Below are positions 2,822 to 20,694 of a DNA stretch of 20,698 nucleotides, piece after piece (the stretch's first letter is position 1; every line of letters begins with the position of its first letter). The position numbers and the translations under genes were made by a program. The stretch spans positions 1 to 20,698 of the IMG/VR virus record IMGVR_UViG_3300047554_000422, one strand, 5' to 3'. Source of the stretch: a virus. The notes under the pieces are model-generated. The model did not search any database, was not told where the DNA came from, and worked only from the letters and a program-made list of their open reading frames with translations.

Positions 2822-4711
2822 ATGATAGATATGAATGCTCCACCTACACCTGAAGAATTATTAGCGATTGGAGTGGACCCTGAAGAGTATAAGCGTAGAC
2901 TACAACAACCCGCTCCTCAGCCTATACCTCAAGCACAACCTGTTCAACAGGCTTCTATGCCTCAGGATGACCTAATGAATGCTCCTCCTACAAGGGAAGA
3001 GCTTATTGCGATTGGTATAGACCCTGATGAACATGCTGCTAAATTAAATCAAGGTGTTCAGAAATCACCTGAAGAGCACATAGTAGAGAAAGGTAGTGCG
3101 CTATTAAGTACAATACAAGGAATTAGAGATGCATACCTAGCAGCCGGACATGAAGTTGGTTCCTTAGCAGGAGGTGCCGTTAAGAATATAGGTAAGATAG
3201 TAGGTAGTAAAACACTTGAAGATTTAGGAGCTGCTGGACAAGCTTCGTCTGATGCTGTAGTAGAAGAATCTATTCAGAGCAGTCCTATTTTAGGACGAGT
3301 GGGTAAATACGGAGCTGATCTTACGGCCGGTATCGCTGCTACGCCTGCTTCTACAGGGCTACTAGGAGGCCTAGCTGCTGGTGCCGTAGGAGGTGGCGCT
3401 GCTGCATTAGCAACATCTGACTCAGAGACACCTCTAAAGGATATAGCTAAAGGTGCTGGGACCGGTGCTGCAGTAGTAGGAGCATTAGGTGTCGGTAGTA
3501 AATTGCTAGCTAAAACTCTAGAGCCTGTTATTAAAGGATCAGGTCTATGGGCTTCTAATACTGACGATGTTGTAAATAAAGTTATGAACGCTGCTGTTAG
3601 CAAGAGCGGAGATGATGTTACTAAAGTCACTCCTGGTTCTTTCCTAAGTTCAGTCGAGGCTGCCCAAGCTAAAGCTAAGACAGCTGCTAATGCCTTATAT
3701 AAAGCCAGAGATGAGTACGCTGCTGGTATTAAAGCCACTGTACAAAGGTCTAACGTAGAGAATCTGGTTAATGATTTAAATGTACAGGTTCAAAGTGGTG
3801 CTACTGAGGGAACTACAGCTGCTCTTGCTGCTGCTAAGAAAGCTCTAGGTAATAACTCAGCCATACCGTTTGCTAAAGCACAAGAGCTTATAAGCGGGTT
3901 AGGTGATGAGGCGTTTACCGCCAGTAAGGCAGGTGACCTAGTAAAGAGTAAAGCTATCCTGGAGGTTAAACAGGCCTTAGAGAAAGATATTATAAGATCG
4001 ATACCTGATGAGCAATTACAAGCTCTACATGGAGCTGCTACCCAGTACTATAGAGATATTTATTCTCCTATTTCTAAGCTACAGCTTGATAAGAAGATGG
4101 CAGACAAATATACACAAGATGTGTTTGTTAATAAGTTTGCTAATAAGGTCCTGGACACTCCGTCAGCAATGAATGCCTTAGGTAAGATAGACCCCAACAT
4201 TAAGGAACAGGCAATTGCCTCAACCGTTAATGCTATTAAGAATGCTTCTATAGGAGATCACGGATTAGACCTAGCGAAATTTGCTAAAGGCTTGCGTAGG
4301 GAGGTAACTCAGAACGGACAGGCTTACGGAGATGTAGCAGACAGCTTGGCTACCTATGCTGATATATTATCAGCTAAAGTTACTTCAGGAAAGATAGGTT
4401 CAGGAGCTGCTTCTGGTAGTTTAATGCAGATGGGGTTATTTGGAGGAAGCTTTGCGTTAGGAGGACCTGCTGGGTTAGCGACCACTGCAGCAACGAGTAA
4501 GGCTTTGTTCTTATATCAAGCTGGTAAGTTGATAAGTAATCCAGAAGCACAGGCTTTATTAAAGACTGCTTCTACATTAGCTCAGAATGGTAAGAACCCT
4601 GCTATGGCCGCAAAGATCGCTGATCGTCTAATGTCTATCAGCATCAAGAATGAAAGGGGTCTTCCATCCCGCTTTGCGGCCGCATTGGCTGGAGGATCAG
4701 CGACGGAGTAA
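2822..4711 (+). CDS. Large internal virion protein (T7 gp16-like position), with N-terminal repeat
   Basis: A 629-residue Ala/Gly-rich protein. The N-terminus has two copies of a 24-residue unit (residues 4-27 and 52-75, beginning MNAPPT and containing EEL-AIG-DP) with about 16 identical positions, joined by a Pro/Gln linker. Two hydrophobic Gly/Ala stretches (about 165-200 and near 530-570) could insert in membranes. The rest is predicted helical. Last of the internal virion-type genes, it fits a membrane-penetrating ejection protein like T7 gp16, but I see no transglycosylase motif; that activity may instead be the separate lysozyme just upstream. AGGA eight bases upstream supports the start. 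Its last 15 bases overlap the end of a convergent small gene on the other strand. Confidence 0.6.
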   Translation: MIDMNAPPTPEELLAIGVDPEEYKRRLQQPAPQPIPQAQPVQQASMPQDDLMNAPPTREELIAIGIDPDEHAAKLNQGVQKSPEEHIVEKGSALLSTIQGIRDAYLAAGHEVGSLAGGAVKNIGKIVGSKTLEDLGAAGQASSDAVVEESIQSSPILGRVGKYGADLTAGIAATPASTGLLGGLAAGAVGGGAAALATSDSETPLKDIAKGAGTGAAVVGALGVGSKLLAKTLEPVIKGSGLWASNTDDVVNKVMNAAVSKSGDDVTKVTPGSFLSSVEAAQAKAKTAANALYKARDEYAAGIKATVQRSNVENLVNDLNVQVQSGATEGTTAALAAAKKALGNNSAIPFAKAQELISGLGDEAFTASKAGDLVKSKAILEVKQALEKDIIRSIPDEQLQALHGAATQYYRDIYSPISKLQLDKKMADKYTQDVFVNKFANKVLDTPSAMNALGKIDPNIKEQAIASTVNAIKNASIGDHGLDLAKFAKGLRREVTQNGQAYGDVADSLATYADILSAKVTSGKIGSGAASGSLMQMGLFGGSFALGGPAGLATTAATSKALFLYQAGKLISNPEAQALLKTASTLAQNGKNPAMAAKIADRLMSISIKNERGLPSRFAAALAGGSATE

Positions 4712-4810
4712 TAATATCGCCGAGCCTAGGGTGAACATTGCTATTAGGTACTGTCCGGTCAGGATTGACCAGACGAAAGCAACTAATAGTATTATAGGAA
4801 CATAGTTCAT
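4697..4810 (-). CDS. 37-aa membrane peptide of the reverse-strand cassette
   Basis: A short ORF starting MNYVPIILLVAFVWSILTG and ending LLLRR. It is almost entirely hydrophobic with a TGQ break, so it could form one long helix or a two-helix hairpin with a positively charged C-terminus. GGAGG lies seven bases before the ATG, and the previous gene's stop is one base upstream, so the two are probably translationally coupled. The mRNA contains a nine-pair hairpin (4753-4761 with 4766-4774, four-base loop) inside the coding region. It is last in a three-gene reverse cassette. A holin or holin-like role is possible on size and topology but is not shown by any motif. Confidence 0.6.
   Translation of the reverse strand: MNYVPIILLVAFVWSILTGQYLIAMFTLGSAILLLRR
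4753..4774 (-). other. RNA hairpin inside the 37-aa gene
   Basis: On the minus strand GTCTGGTCA pairs with TGACCGGAC around a four-base ATCC loop, nine pairs with one U-G. On the plus strand one pair becomes a C-A mismatch, so the structure favours the minus-strand transcript. No U-run follows, so it is not an intrinsic terminator. It may slow translation or protect the 3' end of the cassette mRNA. Confidence 0.4.
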
Positions 4811-4811
4811 C

Positions 4812-5252
4812 CTAGCCTCCAATTACGAAACATGGTTTAAGACCACCACGTTGGGCATTGTCACATGATCTATTGAGACCATCAACAAATACTTGACCGT
4901 CTACATCTCTAACACCCGGTGCGATGTATGTCTTCTTAGGTACGGTAACGAAGAAACTCGTACCACTACCTGTTGAACCTACCGATATGTTACCGTCAGT
5001 GAAGAAGGTAGCTGGTGGCTTAGGTGGCATGTTAAATGTAGATACAGTATTACCACCATTATAAGCAGAACTTCCAGTAGAGGTTGTAGTGGTAGCTGTT
5101 GAACTACTTCCGCTAGTACTCACTGACGATGTGGTCGATACTGATCCTACATCACCATACTGATGTCCTGGTGGTATAAAATCTGGCGGATCAGCAAAAG
5201 CTGCTCCCGTTAAGGCTAGTGTTATTACAACACTCAATAAATATTTTTTCAT
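4812..5252 (-). CDS. Secreted Ser/Thr-rich protein with signal peptide
   Basis: 146 residues with a textbook Sec signal peptide: KK n-region, hydrophobic core and a probable signal peptidase I site after residue 20 (GAAFA, then DPP). The mature part has a low-complexity Ser/Thr/Gly linker (about residues 38-72), a Pro-rich patch (MPPKPP), and a C-terminal region with two Cys residues (RSCDNAQ and KPCFVIG) that may form a disulfide in the periplasm. A strong AAGGAGG precedes the start. It lies on the strand opposite to the flanking virion genes, between two small membrane proteins. I do not recognise the family. It could act in the periplasm or on the cell surface (for example exclusion or spanin-like roles), but nothing in the sequence decides this. 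Confidence 0.75.
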   Translation of the reverse strand: MKKYLLSVVITLALTGAAFADPPDFIPPGHQYGDVGSVSTTSSVSTSGSSSTATTTTSTGSSAYNGGNTVSTFNMPPKPPATFFTDGNISVGSTGSGTSFFVTVPKKTYIAPGVRDVDGQVFVDGLNRSCDNAQRGGLKPCFVIGG

Positions 5253-5563: not shown

Positions 5564-6715
5564 ATGGCAGTATTATTTCCTATAACACAATTCTTTGACA
5601 ATACAGGAGCTCCTTTAGCAGGAGGTAAAGTATATACTTATGCTGCCGGAGGAACAACTCCTAAGACGGCATACACAACACAAGCCGCTTCGGTAGCATT
5701 AGCTAACCCTGTAGTGTTAGACTCTGCAGGACGTACGTCTGGTATTTGGTTATCTGGCTCTTACCACATTGTCGTTAAAAGCTCAGATGGAGCTACAACC
5801 TATCATGACTTAGATACAGTGAACGGATATAACCCAGTTGACTGGACAGGTCTAACTGCTTCTATCGCGGACCTTAACGGGTATGCCTCTGCAGCAGGTA
5901 CACCAGGTACTGTAGCAGCTTCTAAAACTGTTGTAGTGGATTCAAATAAAGATATAGCTACCTTTCGAAACCTATCAGCTTCTACACTAACAGCTTCTAC
6001 ATCGATCACAACTCCGTTAATCAAAGATGCTAATGGCGTTAGTGCTGTTACCATAGCTACTACAGCTTCTCAAGTAAACGGCATAACATTAACCCCTAGT
6101 GCTACAGGCAATGCCGTGTCGCTGGCTGCTACTGGATCAGATACTAACATTAACTTACAGTTAAGTAGTAAGGGCTCTGGTAAGATCAAGCTAAACAGCT
6201 TCAGCTTTCCTACGACGGATGGAACAAGTGGAGACGTATTAAAGACGGACGGAGCTGGAGTATTGTCCTTCGGTCCTGCTGTAGGATTAAAATACTTAGG
6301 ACAGACTTCACTCACAGCGTTAACTACAATAACAACTGTAATACCATACGATGATACAATACCACAGAACACCGAAGGAGATCAAATTCTGTCTTTAACA
6401 GTTACTCCCACATCGGCTACGTCAAAATTACTGATATTCGTAGATGTTACCGCAGGATCAAACTCTACATCCAGAAACGTTAACGTTGCTCTGTTCCAAG
6501 ATTCTACAGCAGATGCATTGGCCGCAACGTCTGATGGAAACTCTGTTCATATGTTACATACTATGACTTCTGGAACTACTAGCGCGACCACATTCAAGGT
6601 ACGATGCGGTCCAAGTGCTGCTGGTACTGTATACGTTAATGGAACAATAGCAGGAGGTGCTTTATATAACGGTAAATGTAGCACAACTTTAACAATACTC
6701 GAGGTTGCTGTATAA
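5564..6715 (+). CDS. Tail fibre/spike protein, copy 1
   Basis: 383 residues. The N-terminus (FFDNTGAPLAGGKVYTYAAG, then LANPVVLDSAGRTSGIW) is the virion-binding motif common at the start of podoviral tail fibres and spikes. The middle is a Ser/Thr/Ala-rich beta repeat region, with TDGTSGDVLKTDGAGVL, a phrase frequent in fibre shafts. The C-terminus is beta-rich and ends LEVAV. It is paralogous along most of its length to the next gene, and the two ends (LEVAV, LEVLE) also match. The Shine-Dalgarno is weak (GAGAAAG). It should bind a receptor at the cell surface. No depolymerase or chaperone motif is seen. Its stop overlaps the next ATG by one base (TAATG). Confidence 0.85.
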   Translation: MAVLFPITQFFDNTGAPLAGGKVYTYAAGGTTPKTAYTTQAASVALANPVVLDSAGRTSGIWLSGSYHIVVKSSDGATTYHDLDTVNGYNPVDWTGLTASIADLNGYASAAGTPGTVAASKTVVVDSNKDIATFRNLSASTLTASTSITTPLIKDANGVSAVTIATTASQVNGITLTPSATGNAVSLAATGSDTNINLQLSSKGSGKIKLNSFSFPTTDGTSGDVLKTDGAGVLSFGPAVGLKYLGQTSLTALTTITTVIPYDDTIPQNTEGDQILSLTVTPTSATSKLLIFVDVTAGSNSTSRNVNVALFQDSTADALAATSDGNSVHMLHTMTSGTTSATTFKVRCGPSAAGTVYVNGTIAGGALYNGKCSTTLTILEVAV

Positions 6716-7905
6716 TGGCAGTATTATTTCCACAATTAAGGTTTTTTGATAATAACGGAGATGTCTTATCCTCAGGTACAGTTACATTCTATGAATCATT
6801 CTCTACTAAGCTGAAAGCAGTCTACACTAACCAAGGAGAGGGTACTCAGCTAGAGAACCCTGTTACATTAAATGCCTACGGAGTGCCTGCTACGTCAGGC
6901 AGTATCTGGGTTAATGGTGCTTATAGAGTACTTGTAAAAGATCAAGACGGAAATATCGTAGGGTCTCCTTTAAACGACTACTACAGGATAAACCCTGTTG
7001 ACTGGTCTACGTTGACTGCTACGGTAACTCAATTGAACGGTATGTCAATTGTTGGTATTGCTGAGGGAGTGGCGGAGGAAGGGACTACGATGCTAGTGGA
7101 CTCAAATAAAGACTTTCTAGGACTTCGAAGTTTAAGTGCTGTAACTCTTACTGCTACTACCGCATTTAAAACTCCTTGGATTCTTGATTCCAACGGTGTA
7201 CAGGCCTTTCGTATTACTACTACGGCATCAGCAGTTAACGGAATAACGATTACTCCTTCTGCTACTGGGAATGATGTAGAACTGGAATCTTCTGGAAGTG
7301 ATACTAACATAGGACTTACTTTGAGGCCGCAAGGAAGTTCAAGTGTAATAAAATTTAATAGTTTCTCGCTTCCTTATACGGATGGAGCGTCCAATAAGGT
7401 TTTAACGACAAACGGGTCTTATACCTTGTCTTGGGATTATGTAAATCTCTGCTTAACACAGGGTAGTAATATAGTGACTTCCACTGGAGCAGGAGCTCTG
7501 TGGTCGTCTGCTGTGAACTCCATTAGCAGTCCTATAAGCAGTTATTACACAGTTATAAACTCTGTCACTATTACACCTGTTAGTAATGCATCTAGGTTCT
7601 TGTGTATTAGTAGGCTTAATTTGAATAGTAGTAACGCTCCTTGTACTACTGCTATTTCTTTGTTGTCTGGAGGATCAGAATCTATACAAACAATGGCTTA
7701 TAACTATGCTAACACTAGAGGATGTGGGAATCATTTAACAACAGTATTATCACCTTCGACCACCGGAGAGATAACTATTAGCAATCGATATGCTTCTGGT
7801 AGTGGTTCCGTTAACGTTCATAGAAACTCTCAAGGATTCTCTACCTCTAGAGCATTCGGAGGTGTTAGCAGCTGTACCTTATTGGTATTGGAGGTTCTTG
7901 AATAA
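6715..7905 (+). CDS. Tail fibre/spike protein, copy 2 (paralogue of copy 1)
   Basis: 396 residues starting MAVLFPQLRFFDNNGDVLSSG against MAVLFPITQFFDNTGAPLAGG in the upstream gene. Shared landmarks include NPVDW, LNG, VDSNKD (near 140), ITPSATGND, SGSDTNI and FNSFSLPYTDGAS. The final ~150 residues diverge strongly in sequence and contain several Cys residues absent from copy 1. This suggests tandem duplication followed by divergence of the receptor-binding tip. GAGG about ten bases upstream supports the start, and both ends are coupled to neighbours by TAATG overlaps. The two may form mixed or alternative fibres, widening host range; that is inference. Confidence 0.85.
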   Translation: MAVLFPQLRFFDNNGDVLSSGTVTFYESFSTKLKAVYTNQGEGTQLENPVTLNAYGVPATSGSIWVNGAYRVLVKDQDGNIVGSPLNDYYRINPVDWSTLTATVTQLNGMSIVGIAEGVAEEGTTMLVDSNKDFLGLRSLSAVTLTATTAFKTPWILDSNGVQAFRITTTASAVNGITITPSATGNDVELESSGSDTNIGLTLRPQGSSSVIKFNSFSLPYTDGASNKVLTTNGSYTLSWDYVNLCLTQGSNIVTSTGAGALWSSAVNSISSPISSYYTVINSVTITPVSNASRFLCISRLNLNSSNAPCTTAISLLSGGSESIQTMAYNYANTRGCGNHLTTVLSPSTTGEITISNRYASGSGSVNVHRNSQGFSTSRAFGGVSSCTLLVLEVLE

Positions 7906-10689: not shown

Positions 10690-11331
10690 TCAGGATATGT
10701 CAGGTCTTATCTTTATAAACCTGGGATGTCTCATCTTCCCGTCGGCAGTTATTTCCATAAAGGAAACATCTATATACATACCTATTATATTAGGGGTATA
10801 TAGTGCCTCTCTGTCGTGATCTGTGAACCCTGTACCTACCTTACCCTTATCCGTCATTAATGCTCCTAAACGGCCTTTATTGCGCCCTGTGCCCTCTATT
10901 ATATCCGTAACTCTAACAGACGCATCATCCTTCTTCTTAACCTTCAGAGGCTCTCTCCCATCCTTAAAATGAAGAACTAATCCTTCATCACCATTATCCA
11001 AAACATCATTAAAGTGCATTTCTATTGTTTCAGGATGTGGATTAATAATCTCCGTTATAAATAGTCTTTCATCTATTACAGGGAACAAAGTGTATATATG
11101 TTCCTTATCAATTAGGACACCTCCATGTGTCTTAACTGCACTGATACTAGATTTAAAACTACCTAAGAATATCTCAGCCTTAATTCCTTCCTCCAGTTGA
11201 GGTAGGTTATATAATGGCTTGTCATTCCTGGACCTTGCTTGATTATCTAATCCCCATATAGCTTGCACGCCGTCTAACTTCCTTGTTAGAATAACTGTTC
11301 CTTCTAAATGCTGGTTTTTATATACCTTCAT
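10690..11331 (-). CDS. ATP-dependent DNA ligase, minimal form
   Basis: 213 residues from the preferred ATG at 11331, which has GGAG six bases upstream; an in-frame ATG at 11355 lacks a Shine-Dalgarno and overlaps endonuclease I. Nucleotidyltransferase motifs are in order: motif I KLDGVQA (K18 is the AMP-accepting lysine), SR (34-35), AEIF (E53), DEGLVLH (115-121), and KVKKK (130-134, motif V). An OB-like C-terminal part follows (GTGRNKGRLG, then VGTGFTD). It is shorter than T7 ligase (359 aa), with nothing before the nucleotidyltransferase core. It should seal nicks left by Okazaki-fragment processing. It sits directly after endonuclease I and the exonuclease. Confidence 0.9.
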   Translation of the reverse strand: MKVYKNQHLEGTVILTRKLDGVQAIWGLDNQARSRNDKPLYNLPQLEEGIKAEIFLGSFKSSISAVKTHGGVLIDKEHIYTLFPVIDERLFITEIINPHPETIEMHFNDVLDNGDEGLVLHFKDGREPLKVKKKDDASVRVTDIIEGTGRNKGRLGALMTDKGKVGTGFTDHDREALYTPNIIGMYIDVSFMEITADGKMRHPRFIKIRPDIS

Positions 11332-11332
11332 T

Positions 11333-11746
11333 TTATTCTCCGTTGAACCATTCATCTGGTATTAGTTTATCGGCATATACAAACCCGTTCTTCTCGCACC
11401 AATCTCCATATGATGTCTTTGACGTCTTCGTTATCTTAGCATTACTATTAGTAAATACAAACCTAATGTCTAAGTCAGGGTACTGCTCTTTGACGTATAG
11501 GTGTTTCTTCCTATCCTCTACAGTAAACCTACCTTTAGTCTCTATGATAACTTGCTTCCCGTTAATTGTCAACTCGAAGTCCGGACTATATACATGACTA
11601 GTCACAGGCTTAGTATACCTTATCTTAAATTGCTCGTACTTTACATCCATTCCTTTAGACTTTATTTGCTCTGCTACTCTGTCTTCTAGCCCTGATCTAT
11701 ATCCATGTTTTAACCCTGCCGTAGTTTTTGTATACGTTTTTCTCAT
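11333..11746 (-). CDS. Endonuclease I, Holliday-junction resolvase (T7 gp3-like)
   Basis: 137 residues aligning end to end with T7 gene 3 endonuclease I. Visible landmarks are YRSGLED (E21), the YSPDF segment (D56), IIETKGRF (E69 and K71), the DRKKHL and DIRFVF segments, SYGDWCEKNG, and ADKLIPDEW near the C-terminus. E21, D56, E69 and K71 correspond to the T7 metal-binding active site. The enzyme cuts branched DNA, clearing replication intermediates before packaging and helping break down host DNA. The start overlaps the exonuclease stop by four bases (ATGA), so they are coupled. Confidence 0.96.
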   Translation of the reverse strand: MRKTYTKTTAGLKHGYRSGLEDRVAEQIKSKGMDVKYEQFKIRYTKPVTSHVYSPDFELTINGKQVIIETKGRFTVEDRKKHLYVKEQYPDLDIRFVFTNSNAKITKTSKTSYGDWCEKNGFVYADKLIPDEWFNGE

Positions 11747-17407: not shown

Positions 17408-18052
17408 TTATGTCCTATCGTGATTAGTTTTTTGAATCTCAGCAGCAATATCCACTCCAGTACATCTAGTAGATGCTCCTTCTTTATATACCTTATTAAA
17501 TGTCTCATCTGTAATCCATGCTAGACGTCCGGTATTAACCTTCTCCCAATCTGAGACTGTTAAATACTTATTATACTTCACCTGTAATAGTTTACTTATT
17601 AATCCGACGTACTTCCCATTCTCTCCTTTTAAATCATCTAAGGATAGAATATTGTCTCCTATAGAACCTAGGTGTACCATTAAGAAAGTACCTGGTTTCA
17701 TTACTGTCTTATCGGCGTTAAGAGCTATGATACCAGCCATACTAGATGCTTCTCCTATTACCACAGTTTCTATCTCTTTCGCTTTAGAATGACACATCGC
17801 TGTGGTCAGTTCTAGTCCAGCATCAACATACCCACCTGGTGAGTTAATATACAACGTTATACGTTCATATTCTTTAGCTGTGTGGAACTTATATAGTAAT
17901 GGAGTAACGCTTTTATCTGTTACAGTAGATGTTAGAAATAACTCTACTTTGTGTTTGTCTTTAACAGCTTCTAGTATGGAAGGAAAGACTCCAAATAATA
18001 AGCATAGTGTTAAAGCTGGTGCTGCTACAATGAATGCTAACTTTTTATACAT
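17408..18052 (-). CDS. ClpP/SppA-type serine protease with N-terminal membrane anchor
   Basis: 214 residues. Residues 5-24 (LAFIVAAPALTLCLLFGVF) form a membrane anchor or signal sequence. The rest is a ClpP-family core: LYINSPGGYVDAG (68-79), the nucleophile elbow GEASSMAG (S104 just before Met, as in ClpP), H127 (MVHLGSIG) and D182 (WITDETF) as candidate triad. Phage ClpP-like enzymes are usually capsid-maturation proteases in the virion module; this one is in the early arm and is likely on or beyond the inner membrane. It may cut host membrane or periplasmic proteins, or oligomerise with a host AAA+ partner. The family is clear, target unknown. Confidence 0.85.
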   Translation of the reverse strand: MYKKLAFIVAAPALTLCLLFGVFPSILEAVKDKHKVELFLTSTVTDKSVTPLLYKFHTAKEYERITLYINSPGGYVDAGLELTTAMCHSKAKEIETVVIGEASSMAGIIALNADKTVMKPGTFLMVHLGSIGDNILSLDDLKGENGKYVGLISKLLQVKYNKYLTVSDWEKVNTGRLAWITDETFNKVYKEGASTRCTGVDIAAEIQKTNHDRT

Positions 18053-18479: not shown

Positions 18480-18634
18480 TAATATCCCCACTTATCTAGT
18501 AGGAACATCATACCCGTGGCTAATACTGTCAGTAGTAGTATCGATAGTATCGGACCTACTCCTAATACCATTAGCACTAGGCTAGAGAAGAACAACACAA
18601 AGAACAGCGTTAATATACCTAATAACATATGCAT
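18479..18634 (-). CDS. 51-aa two-helix membrane peptide
   Basis: Starts MHMLLGILTLFFVLFFSSLV. Two hydrophobic segments (about 3-25 and 28-46) are separated by a GVGP turn, with a short DKWGY tail. TAGGAG nine bases upstream. The hairpin topology is common in phage membrane-modifying peptides and small holins, but its early position argues against lysis. Coupled to the 26-aa gene that follows. Confidence 0.65.
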   Translation of the reverse strand: MHMLLGILTLFFVLFFSSLVLMVLGVGPILSILLLTVLATGMMFLLDKWGY

Positions 18635-18637
18635 TTA

Positions 18638-18841
18638 TTACACTCCTATTTTAAATGGACGTAACCAAGTTCTTTCTTGGAGATGTTCTGAGCTAATCTC
18701 TTTAAAAGCTGGTCTGTACTTAGGCATTGCCCAAGTGCATCCCTTCTCTAAAGGATCACACCCATACGTAGTAGTATACCCTAAACTTTCTTCTAATTCA
18801 ACTACTTTCGACTTCTTTGTTCTCTTTTGACCGTGTGACAT
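18638..18841 (-). CDS. 67-aa early protein of unknown function
   Basis: Starts MSHGQKRTKKSKVVELEESL. Basic N-terminus, then a mixed segment with two Cys residues (YGCDPLEKGC) and several Trp and aromatic residues. Soluble, no known motif. AGGAG seven bases before the ATG supports the start. Clustered with microproteins of the early arm, where phages commonly keep host-takeover factors. Confidence 0.65.
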   Translation of the reverse strand: MSHGQKRTKKSKVVELEESLGYTTTYGCDPLEKGCTWAMPKYRPAFKEISSEHLQERTWLRPFKIGV

Positions 18842-18867
18842 TTTACTTCTCCTATTGTTGTTGTTAA

Positions 18868-19059
18868 TTATATTTGATTAAACACTTCATCATTATCTAT
18901 AATAGCAGATTGAATCTTATCTGTCACTATAGGCTTATCACATTTTCCTTCTAAGTATCCATACAACGCGCTCTTATATTTACGAGCTAAGTACACATTG
19001 AAGTCTGTAACGTTGTTATACTTCTGTGCGTACACTGGACTGTACGTGAATTCCTTCAT
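18868..19059 (-). CDS. 63-aa early protein of unknown function
   Basis: Starts MKEFTYSPVYAQKYNNVTDF. Soluble, Tyr-rich, ending in an acidic helix (IQSAIIDNDEVFNQI). The ATG overlaps the stop of the upstream 60-aa gene (ATGA), so it is translationally coupled. No family recognised. Confidence 0.65.
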   Translation of the reverse strand: MKEFTYSPVYAQKYNNVTDFNVYLARKYKSALYGYLEGKCDKPIVTDKIQSAIIDNDEVFNQI

Positions 19060-19238
19060 TGATACACTCCAGTCTTAGTCATATGGTCTAGCCATAGGTT
19101 CCTAGCCGTCTTAAGCATAATAGCTTCTTTATGAAGTTTCTTAATGTACTCTGACTCGTCTAGCAACAACGCTACCTCTAGTGCTTCCACTATCGTAGAG
19201 TACAATACAATCTTACAACCTAGTTTCTTCTTACTCAT
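19056..19238 (-). CDS. 60-aa early protein of unknown function
   Basis: Starts MSKKKLGCKIVLYSTIVEAL. A basic N-terminus is followed by a helical body (EALEVALLLDESEYIKKLHKE). Soluble or peripheral. Both ends overlap neighbours by ATGA, so it is part of a tightly coupled three-gene run (48-aa, 60-aa, 63-aa). No known motif. Confidence 0.65.
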   Translation of the reverse strand: MSKKKLGCKIVLYSTIVEALEVALLLDESEYIKKLHKEAIMLKTARNLWLDHMTKTGVYQ

Positions 19239-19381
19239 CGCGTTCTCCTAATTTCTAAAATAATTTCTTGTAAATCTTTTCTCTCTTTCTTCAAGGCTCT
19301 AAGGTCGATTATAGATAATATCAACCAACCTATAAGAGCCAAGAAGTTAAGCACAAGTAAAGTTATTATCAGTAGTGCCAT
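19235..19381 (-). CDS. 48-aa membrane peptide with charged tail
   Basis: Starts MALLIITLLVLNFLALIGWL, with one membrane segment of about 24 residues followed by a charged helix (DLRALKKERKDLQEI). GGAG lies eight bases before the ATG, and the stop overlaps the next start (ATGA). A single-pass peptide with a cytoplasmic coiled tail, function unknown. Confidence 0.65.
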   Translation of the reverse strand: MALLIITLLVLNFLALIGWLILSIIDLRALKKERKDLQEIILEIRRTR

Positions 19382-19391
19382 TAAGTTCTCC

Positions 19392-19628
19392 TTATAAAAT
19401 ATGTTTTTTGTGTTTTACACGTTTGGCATGTTGCTCTGCGTGTCTTAGTATTGATAGCAAAGCAATTATGATACCTGTGATTAAGAACACACTAATGATA
19501 CCATACACAAAGTGTGGTAGTTGAAATGCGTCTTTCATCAGCCAAATTAAATCACCTACTGCTATGACTAAACTGCTAATTCCAGCTAGTCCGAAGTTGG
19601 TGAACGAATTTAGTAATTTGTTTAACAT
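19392..19628 (-). CDS. 78-aa two-helix membrane protein
   Basis: Two hydrophobic segments (about residues 13-31, GLAGISSLVIAVGDLIWLM, and 41-61, VYGIISVFLITGIIIALLS) separated by a short loop, with a very basic C-terminus (HAKRVKHKKHIL). AGGAGG precedes the ATG and a small hairpin lies just before it. The holin-like topology is notable, but it is in the early arm, so membrane modification or exclusion fits as well. Confidence 0.7.
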   Translation of the reverse strand: MLNKLLNSFTNFGLAGISSLVIAVGDLIWLMKDAFQLPHFVYGIISVFLITGIIIALLSILRHAEQHAKRVKHKKHIL

Positions 19629-19642
19629 GATTATAACCTCCT

Positions 19643-19658
19643 ATACGCTTTCGCGTAT
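19643..19658 (-). promoter_or_regulatory. GAAA-tetraloop hairpin before a ribosome site
   Basis: On the minus strand ATACGC pairs with GCGTAT around a GAAA (GNRA) loop, directly followed by AGGAGG of the 78-aa gene. It also overlaps the stop of the 55-aa gene. It may protect the downstream message from 5' decay or serve as an RNase site; no U-run, so not a terminator. Confidence 0.5.
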
Positions 19659-19825
19659 TATCTTTTAAACTCATATTTGTACACTTCACCAATTGATAAC
19701 TGTCTTGGTTTAAGTGGTTTGTTTCCGAATATCATGTATTCTAGGCATCTCTCTCGTTTGAGTTCTGTCTGAATTCTTTGGTATTCAGCCCATTGTTCTC
19801 TCAGTTGTTCTATAAATTTAAACAT
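19658..19825 (-). CDS. 55-aa early protein of unknown function
   Basis: Starts MFKFIEQLREQWAEYQRIQ and ends YKYEFKR. A helical N-terminal half (heptad-like, highly charged) is followed by a small domain with GNKPLKPRQLSIGEVY. Soluble. GAGGAG about seven bases before the ATG. First gene behind the promoter at 19851-19878. No family recognised. Confidence 0.65.
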   Translation of the reverse strand: MFKFIEQLREQWAEYQRIQTELKRERCLEYMIFGNKPLKPRQLSIGEVYKYEFKR

Positions 19826-19850
19826 GATTGTTCTCCTCTAATATAAGTTA

Positions 19851-19878
19851 ATTATAGCACATACATACCGTATTGCAA
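19851..19878 (-). promoter_or_regulatory. Internal early promoter
   Basis: Minus strand -35 TTGCAA (19878-19873), 16-base spacer, extended -10 TGCTATAAT with hexamer 19856-19851. It lies over the 3' part of the 19-aa gene and points at the 55-aa gene. It would let the early operon be transcribed even if polymerase stops at the terminator at 20065. Confidence 0.65.
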
Positions 19879-19911
19879 CAATATTGCAATTATGAATACT
19901 AATGGGAACAT
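19852..19911 (-). CDS. 19-aa hydrophobic peptide (tentative)
   Basis: Reads MFPLVFIIAILLQYGMYVL, a single membrane-length segment. GAGGAGG lies about eight bases before the ATG, within the end of the 40-aa gene. The strong ribosome site argues for translation, but the length is minimal and the same bases hold the internal promoter, so it may be incidental. Confidence 0.4.
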   Translation of the reverse strand: MFPLVFIIAILLQYGMYVL

Positions 19912-19913
19912 GA

Positions 19914-20036
19914 TTATTTCCTCCTCTTCTTTGATCTCTTCTTCTTAGCTTCTGCTTCATCAATTTCTGCTACTACTATCGTCAAGATGAAAAGCAGGAA
20001 CGATGCACCAACCAATATCAGTATACCGCTTACCAT
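19914..20036 (-). CDS. 40-aa membrane peptide with basic tail
   Basis: Starts MVSGILILVGASFLLFILTI, one membrane segment (about 4-23), a short acidic patch (EIDEAEA) and a very basic tail (KKKRSKKRRK). AAGGAGG precedes the ATG. First protein gene after the structured RNA and its terminator. The basic tail could bind nucleic acid or acidic lipids at the membrane. No family recognised. Confidence 0.6.
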   Translation of the reverse strand: MVSGILILVGASFLLFILTIVVAEIDEAEAKKKRSKKRRK

Positions 20037-20063
20037 GATTATACCTCCTTAAATTTTAGACAA

Positions 20064-20578
20064 TAAAAAACCCCAGTGAAGGGGCTTTGAGTACCACAGA
20101 GTTAGGGTCTGTGCTTTGGTAAATTGGTACCGGTTGAGAGGTTCGCACTCCCGCGGTCTTACTGCTTTTCAGTTACCACCTACTTCGCTGCCGTTTACCT
20201 TATCCTGATCCTTATAAGATCAGTTGTACACCGGAATTCATCCCAGCTTTCGCACCCTTTATGTATTTGGGGCTGGCCCTGGGCGGCCGTATCTGCGGTT
20301 CACCGCGATTCAGTATCTCCTTGGCGGGGAGCTCTAATGAAGAGCTCGTTACGGCGTCTTAGTCGCCACCCGTCCCGATTCGGTTTGCCGTCCTTGGCAT
20401 CATGTCAATCATCCCGACATTCTTGCCGCTCGGGCGGGGCTGTCGGGCACCCTTTACTAAACAAAATCTTTCCTTCCTTCAGCATCTCTTTGCTTTTCAA
20501 GCTGTCGACTTCCTTATTAGTATGCGCTCTGTCCGAAATCATCCTCTGCCAATCAGTTCCTTGTTTTCGTCATCTCTT
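20064..20578 (-). ncRNA. Large structured RNA of unknown family (~510 nt)
   Basis: The region holds no credible gene, yet on the minus strand it is framed by a consensus promoter (20585-20612) and an intrinsic terminator (20065-20088). It is clearly richer in G and C than the rest of the window. Many stems are perfect. In plus coordinates: 20413-20419/20441-20447 with inner 20426-20429/20434-20437; 20386-20389/20396-20399; 20353-20356/20364-20367; 20329-20335/20341-20347; 20295-20298/20303-20306; 20243-20247/20272-20276 with inner 20255-20257/20269-20271; 20205-20210/20218-20223; 20129-20132/20154-20157 enclosing 20136-20140/20148-20152; 20095-20100/20108-20113. The 20136-20152 hairpin has a five-pair stem and seven-base loop TGCGAAC, close to a tRNA T-loop. 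Size and ornateness resemble phage ROOL or GOLLD RNAs; a leader for antitermination is the other main possibility. Confidence 0.75.
20065..20088 (-). terminator. Intrinsic terminator of the structured RNA
   Basis: Minus strand GCCCC, loop TTCACT, GGGG, then six T (20070-20065). The stem extends by A-T pairs with the T-run. It lies between the structured RNA and the Shine-Dalgarno of the 40-aa gene, so the early genes need read-through or their own promoter. Confidence 0.85.
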
Positions 20579-20590
20579 ATTATCAGTATA
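20576..20590 (-). repeat. Promoter-core repeat, copy 1
   Basis: Minus strand TATACTGATAATAAG, covering the -10 and the predicted first transcribed bases. Identical to 20680-20694. The match beyond the -10 suggests the start-site region itself is conserved. Confidence 0.8.
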
Positions 20591-20612
20591 CACTCTTTTA
20601 CAACTTTGTCAA
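20585..20612 (-). promoter_or_regulatory. Consensus sigma70 promoter of the structured RNA
   Basis: Minus strand -35 TTGACA (20612-20607, perfect consensus), 16-base spacer, -10 TATACT (20590-20585). Transcription would start near 20578. It is the strongest promoter in the window and has no gene closer than 500 bases. Confidence 0.85.
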
Positions 20613-20679: not shown

Positions 20680-20694
20680 CTTATTATCAGTATA
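20680..20694 (-). repeat. Promoter-core repeat, copy 2
   Basis: Second copy of TATACTGATAATAAG, 104 bases upstream of copy 1 in the direction of transcription. The 75 bases between the copies are purine-rich on the minus strand and hold no gene. Confidence 0.8.

Follow-up and report, generated by a model that had tools for sequence, protein, structure and literature searches.

The window, by which we mean the whole stretch of DNA analysed here, is an IMG/VR record of 20,698 bases in which end repeats were looked for and none was found. Its structural genes run rightward and extend to about 8.2 kb, and its small early ORFs and a T7-like replication set, comprising primase/helicase, DNA polymerase, 5'-3' exonuclease, ATP-dependent ligase and metallophosphoesterase, run leftward from 20036 to 8275. 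The window phage reads as a podophage with T7-like replication genes. Among individual genes, we noted an early serine protease that is ClpP-like and has a hydrophobic N-terminus (17408-18052; Pfam CLP_protease, phrog_1827), a very short ATP-dependent DNA ligase of 221 aa with a KLDG motif and an OB domain (10690-11355), and two adjacent ORFs with similar starts (MAVLFP...; 5564-6715 and 6715-7905), which are probably duplicated tail-fibre genes. On the minus strand, positions 20612-20061 hold a sigma70 promoter, about 515 GC-rich bases in which no credible gene is seen, and an intrinsic terminator (Table 1). All early genes lie leftward of this locus, from which we infer that it stands at the head of the early arm, but the contig stops 120 bp upstream.

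Table 1. Features of the early-arm RNA locus and its surroundings (window coordinates).
Feature	Position	Strand	Basis or remark
Upstream -10 region copy TATACTGATAATAAG	20680..20694	-	Direct repeat; TG one base ahead; any -35 box would lie beyond the contig end
Sigma70-type promoter TTGACA-16-TATACT	20585..20612	-	11/12 matches; start site expected near 20578
5' segment, purine-rich, weakly structured	20458..20578	-	Fold z -1.1; carries 4 of 7 AAGGA motifs
GC-rich structured core	20119..20457	-	Predicted closing helix 20457-20453/20123-20119 and 20451-20446/20131-20126 (core folded in isolation; competing folds exist)
Core arm A	20369..20438	-	20438-20430 with 20378-20369; pair probabilities 0.70-0.99
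Arm A inner hairpins	20420-20414/20408-20402; 20399-20396/20389-20386 (loop AAGGAC)	-	Base-pair probabilities
7-bp hairpin GAGCTCT/AGAGCTC	20329..20347	-	Pair probability 0.99-1.00
Hairpin CTGATCTT/AGGATCAG	20205..20223	-	Pair probability 0.94
Adjacent arms GTGGT..ACCGC (inner ACTG/CAGT) and GGGAG..CTCTC	20136..20179	-	Probability 0.77-0.94 in the core alone; absent from the full-length MFE fold
Hairpin CACAGA/TCTGTG, core-terminator interval	20095..20113	-	Pair probability 0.89-0.98
Intrinsic terminator AAAGCCCC-TTCACT-GGGGTTTT, then T run	20067..20088	-	Sequence; near-identical ones in four gammaproteobacterial phages
First early ORF, 40-aa predicted membrane peptide	19914..20036	-	AAGGAGG ribosome site
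Next candidate promoter TTGCAA-16-TATAAT, TGC ahead of -10	19851..19878	-	Would drive the following early ORFs (from 19825)

A preliminary description of this DNA had proposed a structured, noncoding RNA that is expressed early from a strong host promoter, and our analysis supports this as far as a single sequence allows. The -35 box, the 16-base spacer and the TATACT that it reported are indeed present, with TTGACA starting at 20612 and TATACT ending at 20585. Sites with 11 of 12 matches occur just twice in 12.7 kb, the second one inside a gene. The 15-mer TATACTGATAATAAG is present twice, 104 bp apart (20694-20680 and 20590-20576), which makes a tandem pair of promoters probable; a comparable 15-mer repeat arose in 9 of 500 shuffles. 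The longest ORF on the RNA strand (20542-20405) encodes 45 aa and lacks a spaced Shine-Dalgarno sequence, which confirms that the RNA contains no believable ORF. Antisense frames of 77 and 191 aa gave no Pfam match, and the 191-aa frame yielded a weak match to phrog_36487 alone (E 0.0035). The GC content, likewise described as above that of the window, is 0.50 in 20001-20500 and 0.55 in the core, compared with 0.34-0.36 in 18501-20000 and 0.40 in the whole window.

The 519-nt transcript has a predicted minimum free energy of -163.3 kcal/mol, compared with -145.6 ± 5.9 for shuffled sequences (z -3.0), and none of 100 shuffles was as stable. For the core (20119-20457), z is -3.6 on the minus strand versus -1.2 on the plus strand, and 20095-20454 on the minus strand has the lowest energy and the second-best z among 228 segments of 360 nt. 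The strongest fold z in the window (-6.9) belongs to 4501-4860 on the minus strand, which covers the place where a virion gene ends and an opposing ORF begins, and may include terminators. The whole fold is stabler than the shuffles, although single stems are near chance and prove little individually, with 6 perfect hairpins of stem length at least 5 against 3.3 ± 1.7 in shuffles. Globally, the RNA has three mutually exclusive predicted folds separated by no more than 5.4 kcal/mol, namely the free minimum (fold 1), a fold in which the core is closed by GTAAA-GGTGCC/GGTACC-TTTAC (fold 2) and one in which GGTAAA/TTTACC closes the 3' domain only (fold 3). In these models the individual arms appear mostly stable across the three folds and the overall architecture is ambiguous. 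We rejected fold z as sole proof of a structured RNA, since the gap at 1312-1830 in HTVC120P reaches z -4.7 and yet appears to hold an unannotated ORF with hairpins and terminators. Within that annotation gap, the apparent ORF starts MKLSEIVK and, with the hairpins downstream of it, occupies about 1336-1600.

Rfam covariance models, run against the window and the locus at E values up to 10, gave chance matches only; one of these, to Yfr10, covers just the 3' hairpin and the terminator. The families named in the preliminary description (ROOL, GOLLD, OLE, tmRNA and the group I intron) were all compared with the locus and none matched, and neither Rfam nor ARAGORN detected a group I or group II intron or a tmRNA in the window. 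The group I intron of ProddE, used as a positive control for Rfam, was detected. No homologue of the RNA was found in Rfam, in 50,697 phage records, in 72,556 plasmids, in IMG/VR and GTDB searched by motifs, or in 207 loci of protein-related phages, collections from which records very close to the window may be missing. With blastn against phages and plasmids, the terminator alone gave a meaningful match and the rest was chance. A match in MW202710 (36 nt, 83%) falls between two structural genes, in a gap of 71 nt, and was dismissed as chance, every match obtained in IMG/VR and GTDB genomes with core motifs, whether exact or degenerate, fell inside coding sequence, and matches to the 19-mer GGTAAACGGCAGCGAAGTA fit a codon run for VNGSEV. 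Covariance models of two subdomains (R1 and R2), weak models built from one sequence, found no match in 50 related records. For polymerase, helicase, exonuclease and phosphoesterase, the nearest relatives searched show 38-43% identity; for endonuclease I the value rises to as much as 57%.

These searches bear on the suggestion that the RNA belongs with ROOL or GOLLD. Its phage origin, its GC-rich sequence devoid of an ORF and its large multi-arm predicted fold would suit a new ornate RNA of ROOL/GOLLD/OLE type that assembles into RNA-only particles, and it is large, structured, phage-encoded and noncoding as ROOL and GOLLD are. We nevertheless consider this very improbable: the suggestion was not borne out by an Rfam match, either at the gathering score or at E up to 10, and the RNA differs in its early position. 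ROOL and GOLLD often lie near a tRNA island, and no tRNA was found in the window, which is a fragment, so that tRNAs may lie beyond its ends. Many GOLLD RNAs exceed 800 nt (PMC12286853), compared with about 515 nt here.

The lone sequence without homologues, the near-chance single stems, the ambiguous fold and the z value reached by an ordinary ORF region with terminators in HTVC120P would also fit an acquired or decayed GC-rich stretch, for example an intron remnant, with an incidental fold and no function at the RNA level. This, too, is improbable, because the exact framing from promoter to terminator, the GC contrast and the strand asymmetry argue against it, no intron family matched, and an unused 0.5 kb is seldom retained in compact phage genomes. 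The window RNA is a real sequence arrangement and is probably functional; as it stands alone, with no homologue, it is not a demonstrated new family.

The preliminary description was right in giving the RNA its own intrinsic terminator (20088-20067), yet expression of the first early ORF seems to require read-through. Terminator and start codon (20036) are separated by 24 bases with a strong ribosome site at their end, and no convincing promoter was found between them, the sole match (9 of 12) overlapping the terminator; it is for this reason that read-through seems to be needed. The region 20088-20043 is near-identical, by blastn, in Acinetobacter, Pseudoalteromonas and Vibrio/Shewanella phages, which suggests a gammaproteobacterial host for the window phage.

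An own promoter and an intrinsic terminator around an extensively folded RNA without an ORF could also mean that the terminator releases a stable, free RNA of about 515 nt, which would act in trans by binding a host protein or RNA and thereby aid takeover or counter defence. The early ORFs that follow from 19825 have their own candidate promoter, as this reading would allow, and the RNA is in the position expressed first, which in T7 is taken by the anti-restriction gene 0.3. AAGGA occurs 7 times in the RNA against 1.6 expected, one copy being in the loop of a TGCC/GGCA hairpin; GGA motifs overall are not enriched, however (14 versus 14.5 expected), and we rejected a CsrA sponge of the CsrB/RsmZ type as weak on this ground despite the AAGGA excess. 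The positional counterparts in LUZ24-like and phiKMV-like phages are, moreover, joined to early mRNA. We place a free trans-acting RNA only slightly behind the reading preferred below.

The better comparison for the window RNA is a positional one, with covarying leaders of LUZ24-like and phiKMV-like phages that are unrelated to it in sequence. In LUZ24 (NC_010325), two annotated sigma70 promoters start 104 bp apart and are followed, ahead of gp1, by a leader of about 360 nt that carries no annotation and that we took as 655-1019 (about 365 nt; boundaries set in this analysis, no Rfam entry). This leader is kept in 8 Bruynogheviruses, and its consensus fold has nested helices, with 97.9% of cells paired. 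In the alignment, 6 pairs are changed on both sides compared with 1.2 ± 1.0 in shuffles that ignore the kinship of the sequences (0 of 500 as high; 0 or 1 with slid partners), most of the signal being supplied by the divergent phage FJK. The leader had no Rfam match even at relaxed cut-offs. Its covariance model (R3), run unfiltered against the window RNA, reached at best 2.5 bits over a 25-nt stretch, and its profile HMM and a sequence comparison gave no match to that RNA.

In the Bruynoghevirus phiIBB-PAA2, a third, different leader lies between the early promoters and the first gene (about 705-1130). It shares a 37-nt, TGGACAGTATGTTGGGTTAGTATC-like stretch (84%) with LKD16, and the leader slot seems to be exchanged between phages.

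The phiKMV-like leader is the stretch from the last early promoter to the first gene, an arrangement found in LKD16 and LUZ19, and we took it as about 1290-1599 of LKD16 (NC_009935; about 310 nt), again with boundaries set in this analysis and no Rfam entry. It occurs in Phikmvvirus and also in Pollyceevirus, and it is conserved over more than 80% of its length in about 88 records. Across 7 sequences including PollyC, which contributes much of the covariation, 19 pairs are changed on both sides versus 5.0 ± 1.8 in shuffles that likewise disregard kinship (0 of 500 as high; 0-5 in slid versions). Rfam gave no match at relaxed cut-offs, the profile HMM of this leader did not match the window, and there is no sequence similarity to the window RNA. 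A phiKMV-type leader was also observed at 39-338 of PV565004 (vB_PaePA01phi1_RS1), a Pseudomonas phage record of 45.5 kb compared with 42-44 kb for the phiKMV-like records listed with it, and may reflect exchange between genera. Both the LUZ24 and the phiKMV leader continue directly into the first early gene.

Such leaders could instead serve RNA processing or stability, as does the RNase III-cut leader before T7 gene 0.3. The window RNA sits where a processing leader would, between early promoters and the first early gene, and the LUZ24 leader with its nested helices is comparable. We give this role little chance, as the predicted structure contains no extended, unbroken duplex of the kind usual for RNase III sites, and a terminator follows the RNA.

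Weighing these alternatives, we tentatively favor, at a probability of about 0.38, an early-leader RNA that would control read-through in cis, with a trans-acting RNA close behind. Host RNA polymerase would start at one or two tandem sigma70 promoters during DNA entry and make an RNA of about 515 nt, the GC-rich core of which is predicted to fold extensively. Most transcripts would probably halt at the terminator, giving a discrete RNA, and the remaining ones would read through into the first early genes, whose placement behind the terminator is directly visible. The folded leader may act on the transcribing host polymerase and so set read-through to the early genes, in the manner of HK022 put RNA. 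Promoter, tandem repeat, terminator and a first ORF without its own promoter suggest this, as do the modelled fold, stabler than shuffles and more so on the transcribed strand, and the lack of a credible ORF. The same arrangement in LUZ24, LKD16 and LUZ19, with covarying leaders joined to the first early gene, points in the same direction. Against control of read-through in cis stand the missing homologues of the window RNA and, as far as comparison of sequences and models goes, the missing link to the LUZ24 or phiKMV leaders; the terminator gate is not shared by these two, the single-sequence fold is ambiguous, and a promoter and terminator around a noncoding RNA suit a free trans-acting RNA equally.

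It is conceivable, if doubtful, that large folded RNAs heading the early arm are common among podophages as a functional class so far undescribed, that the window RNA represents a third family of it, unrelated in sequence to the covarying families of LUZ24-like and phiKMV-like phages, and that in the opening minutes of infection these RNAs act on host polymerase or on some other target of takeover. The first RNA made after infection is a prime takeover tool, yet annotation at this place seeks proteins only. That two familiar phage groups have covarying leaders in this slot raises the interest of the locus. The conserved, covarying RNAs of LUZ19/phiKMV and LUZ24, which are widely grown phages, seem undescribed in the literature we searched; it included few subscription journals, so that an earlier account may exist elsewhere. 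Should the class be real, laboratory phage-host pairs would allow a direct test of its function, and the window RNA shows that distant phages not in culture use the slot as well. Early-leader RNAs could reveal a new RNA-based way of controlling host RNA polymerase or defence.

Among known systems, the early leader of T7 before gene 0.3 is short and RNase III-processed; like the window RNA it follows host early promoters and precedes the first early gene, but it lacks a large fold. The put RNAs of HK022 are located immediately behind early promoters; they suppress intrinsic terminators, making host polymerase ignore them without the help of a protein (PMC9378689). The window RNA likewise lies just downstream of an early promoter and ahead of a terminator. 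Put RNA has about 70 nt and two stem-loops (PMC9378689), whereas the window RNA, at about 515 nt, is seven times longer with many predicted arms; put mediates factor-independent antitermination via the beta' zinc-binding domain of RNA polymerase, and the window RNA is likened to it by position only. The LUZ24 leader (about 365 nt) shows compensatory changes and the phiKMV-like leader (about 310 nt) is joined to gp0.1, whereas the window RNA is longer, a single sequence, and the only one of the three with a terminator before the first gene, none being seen before gp1 of LUZ24 or in the phiKMV leader. In LUZ24 as in the window, a long, structured, noncoding leader separates the first early gene of a convergent-arm podophage with T7-like primase and DNA polymerase from tandem sigma70 promoters that are spaced by 104 bp. 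The phiKMV-like leader, also long, structured and noncoding, stands behind host-type early promoters and before the first early gene. The window RNA resembles these leaders in its place and its kind, with tandem promoters of host type followed by a long noncoding leader that folds, and by small early ORFs.
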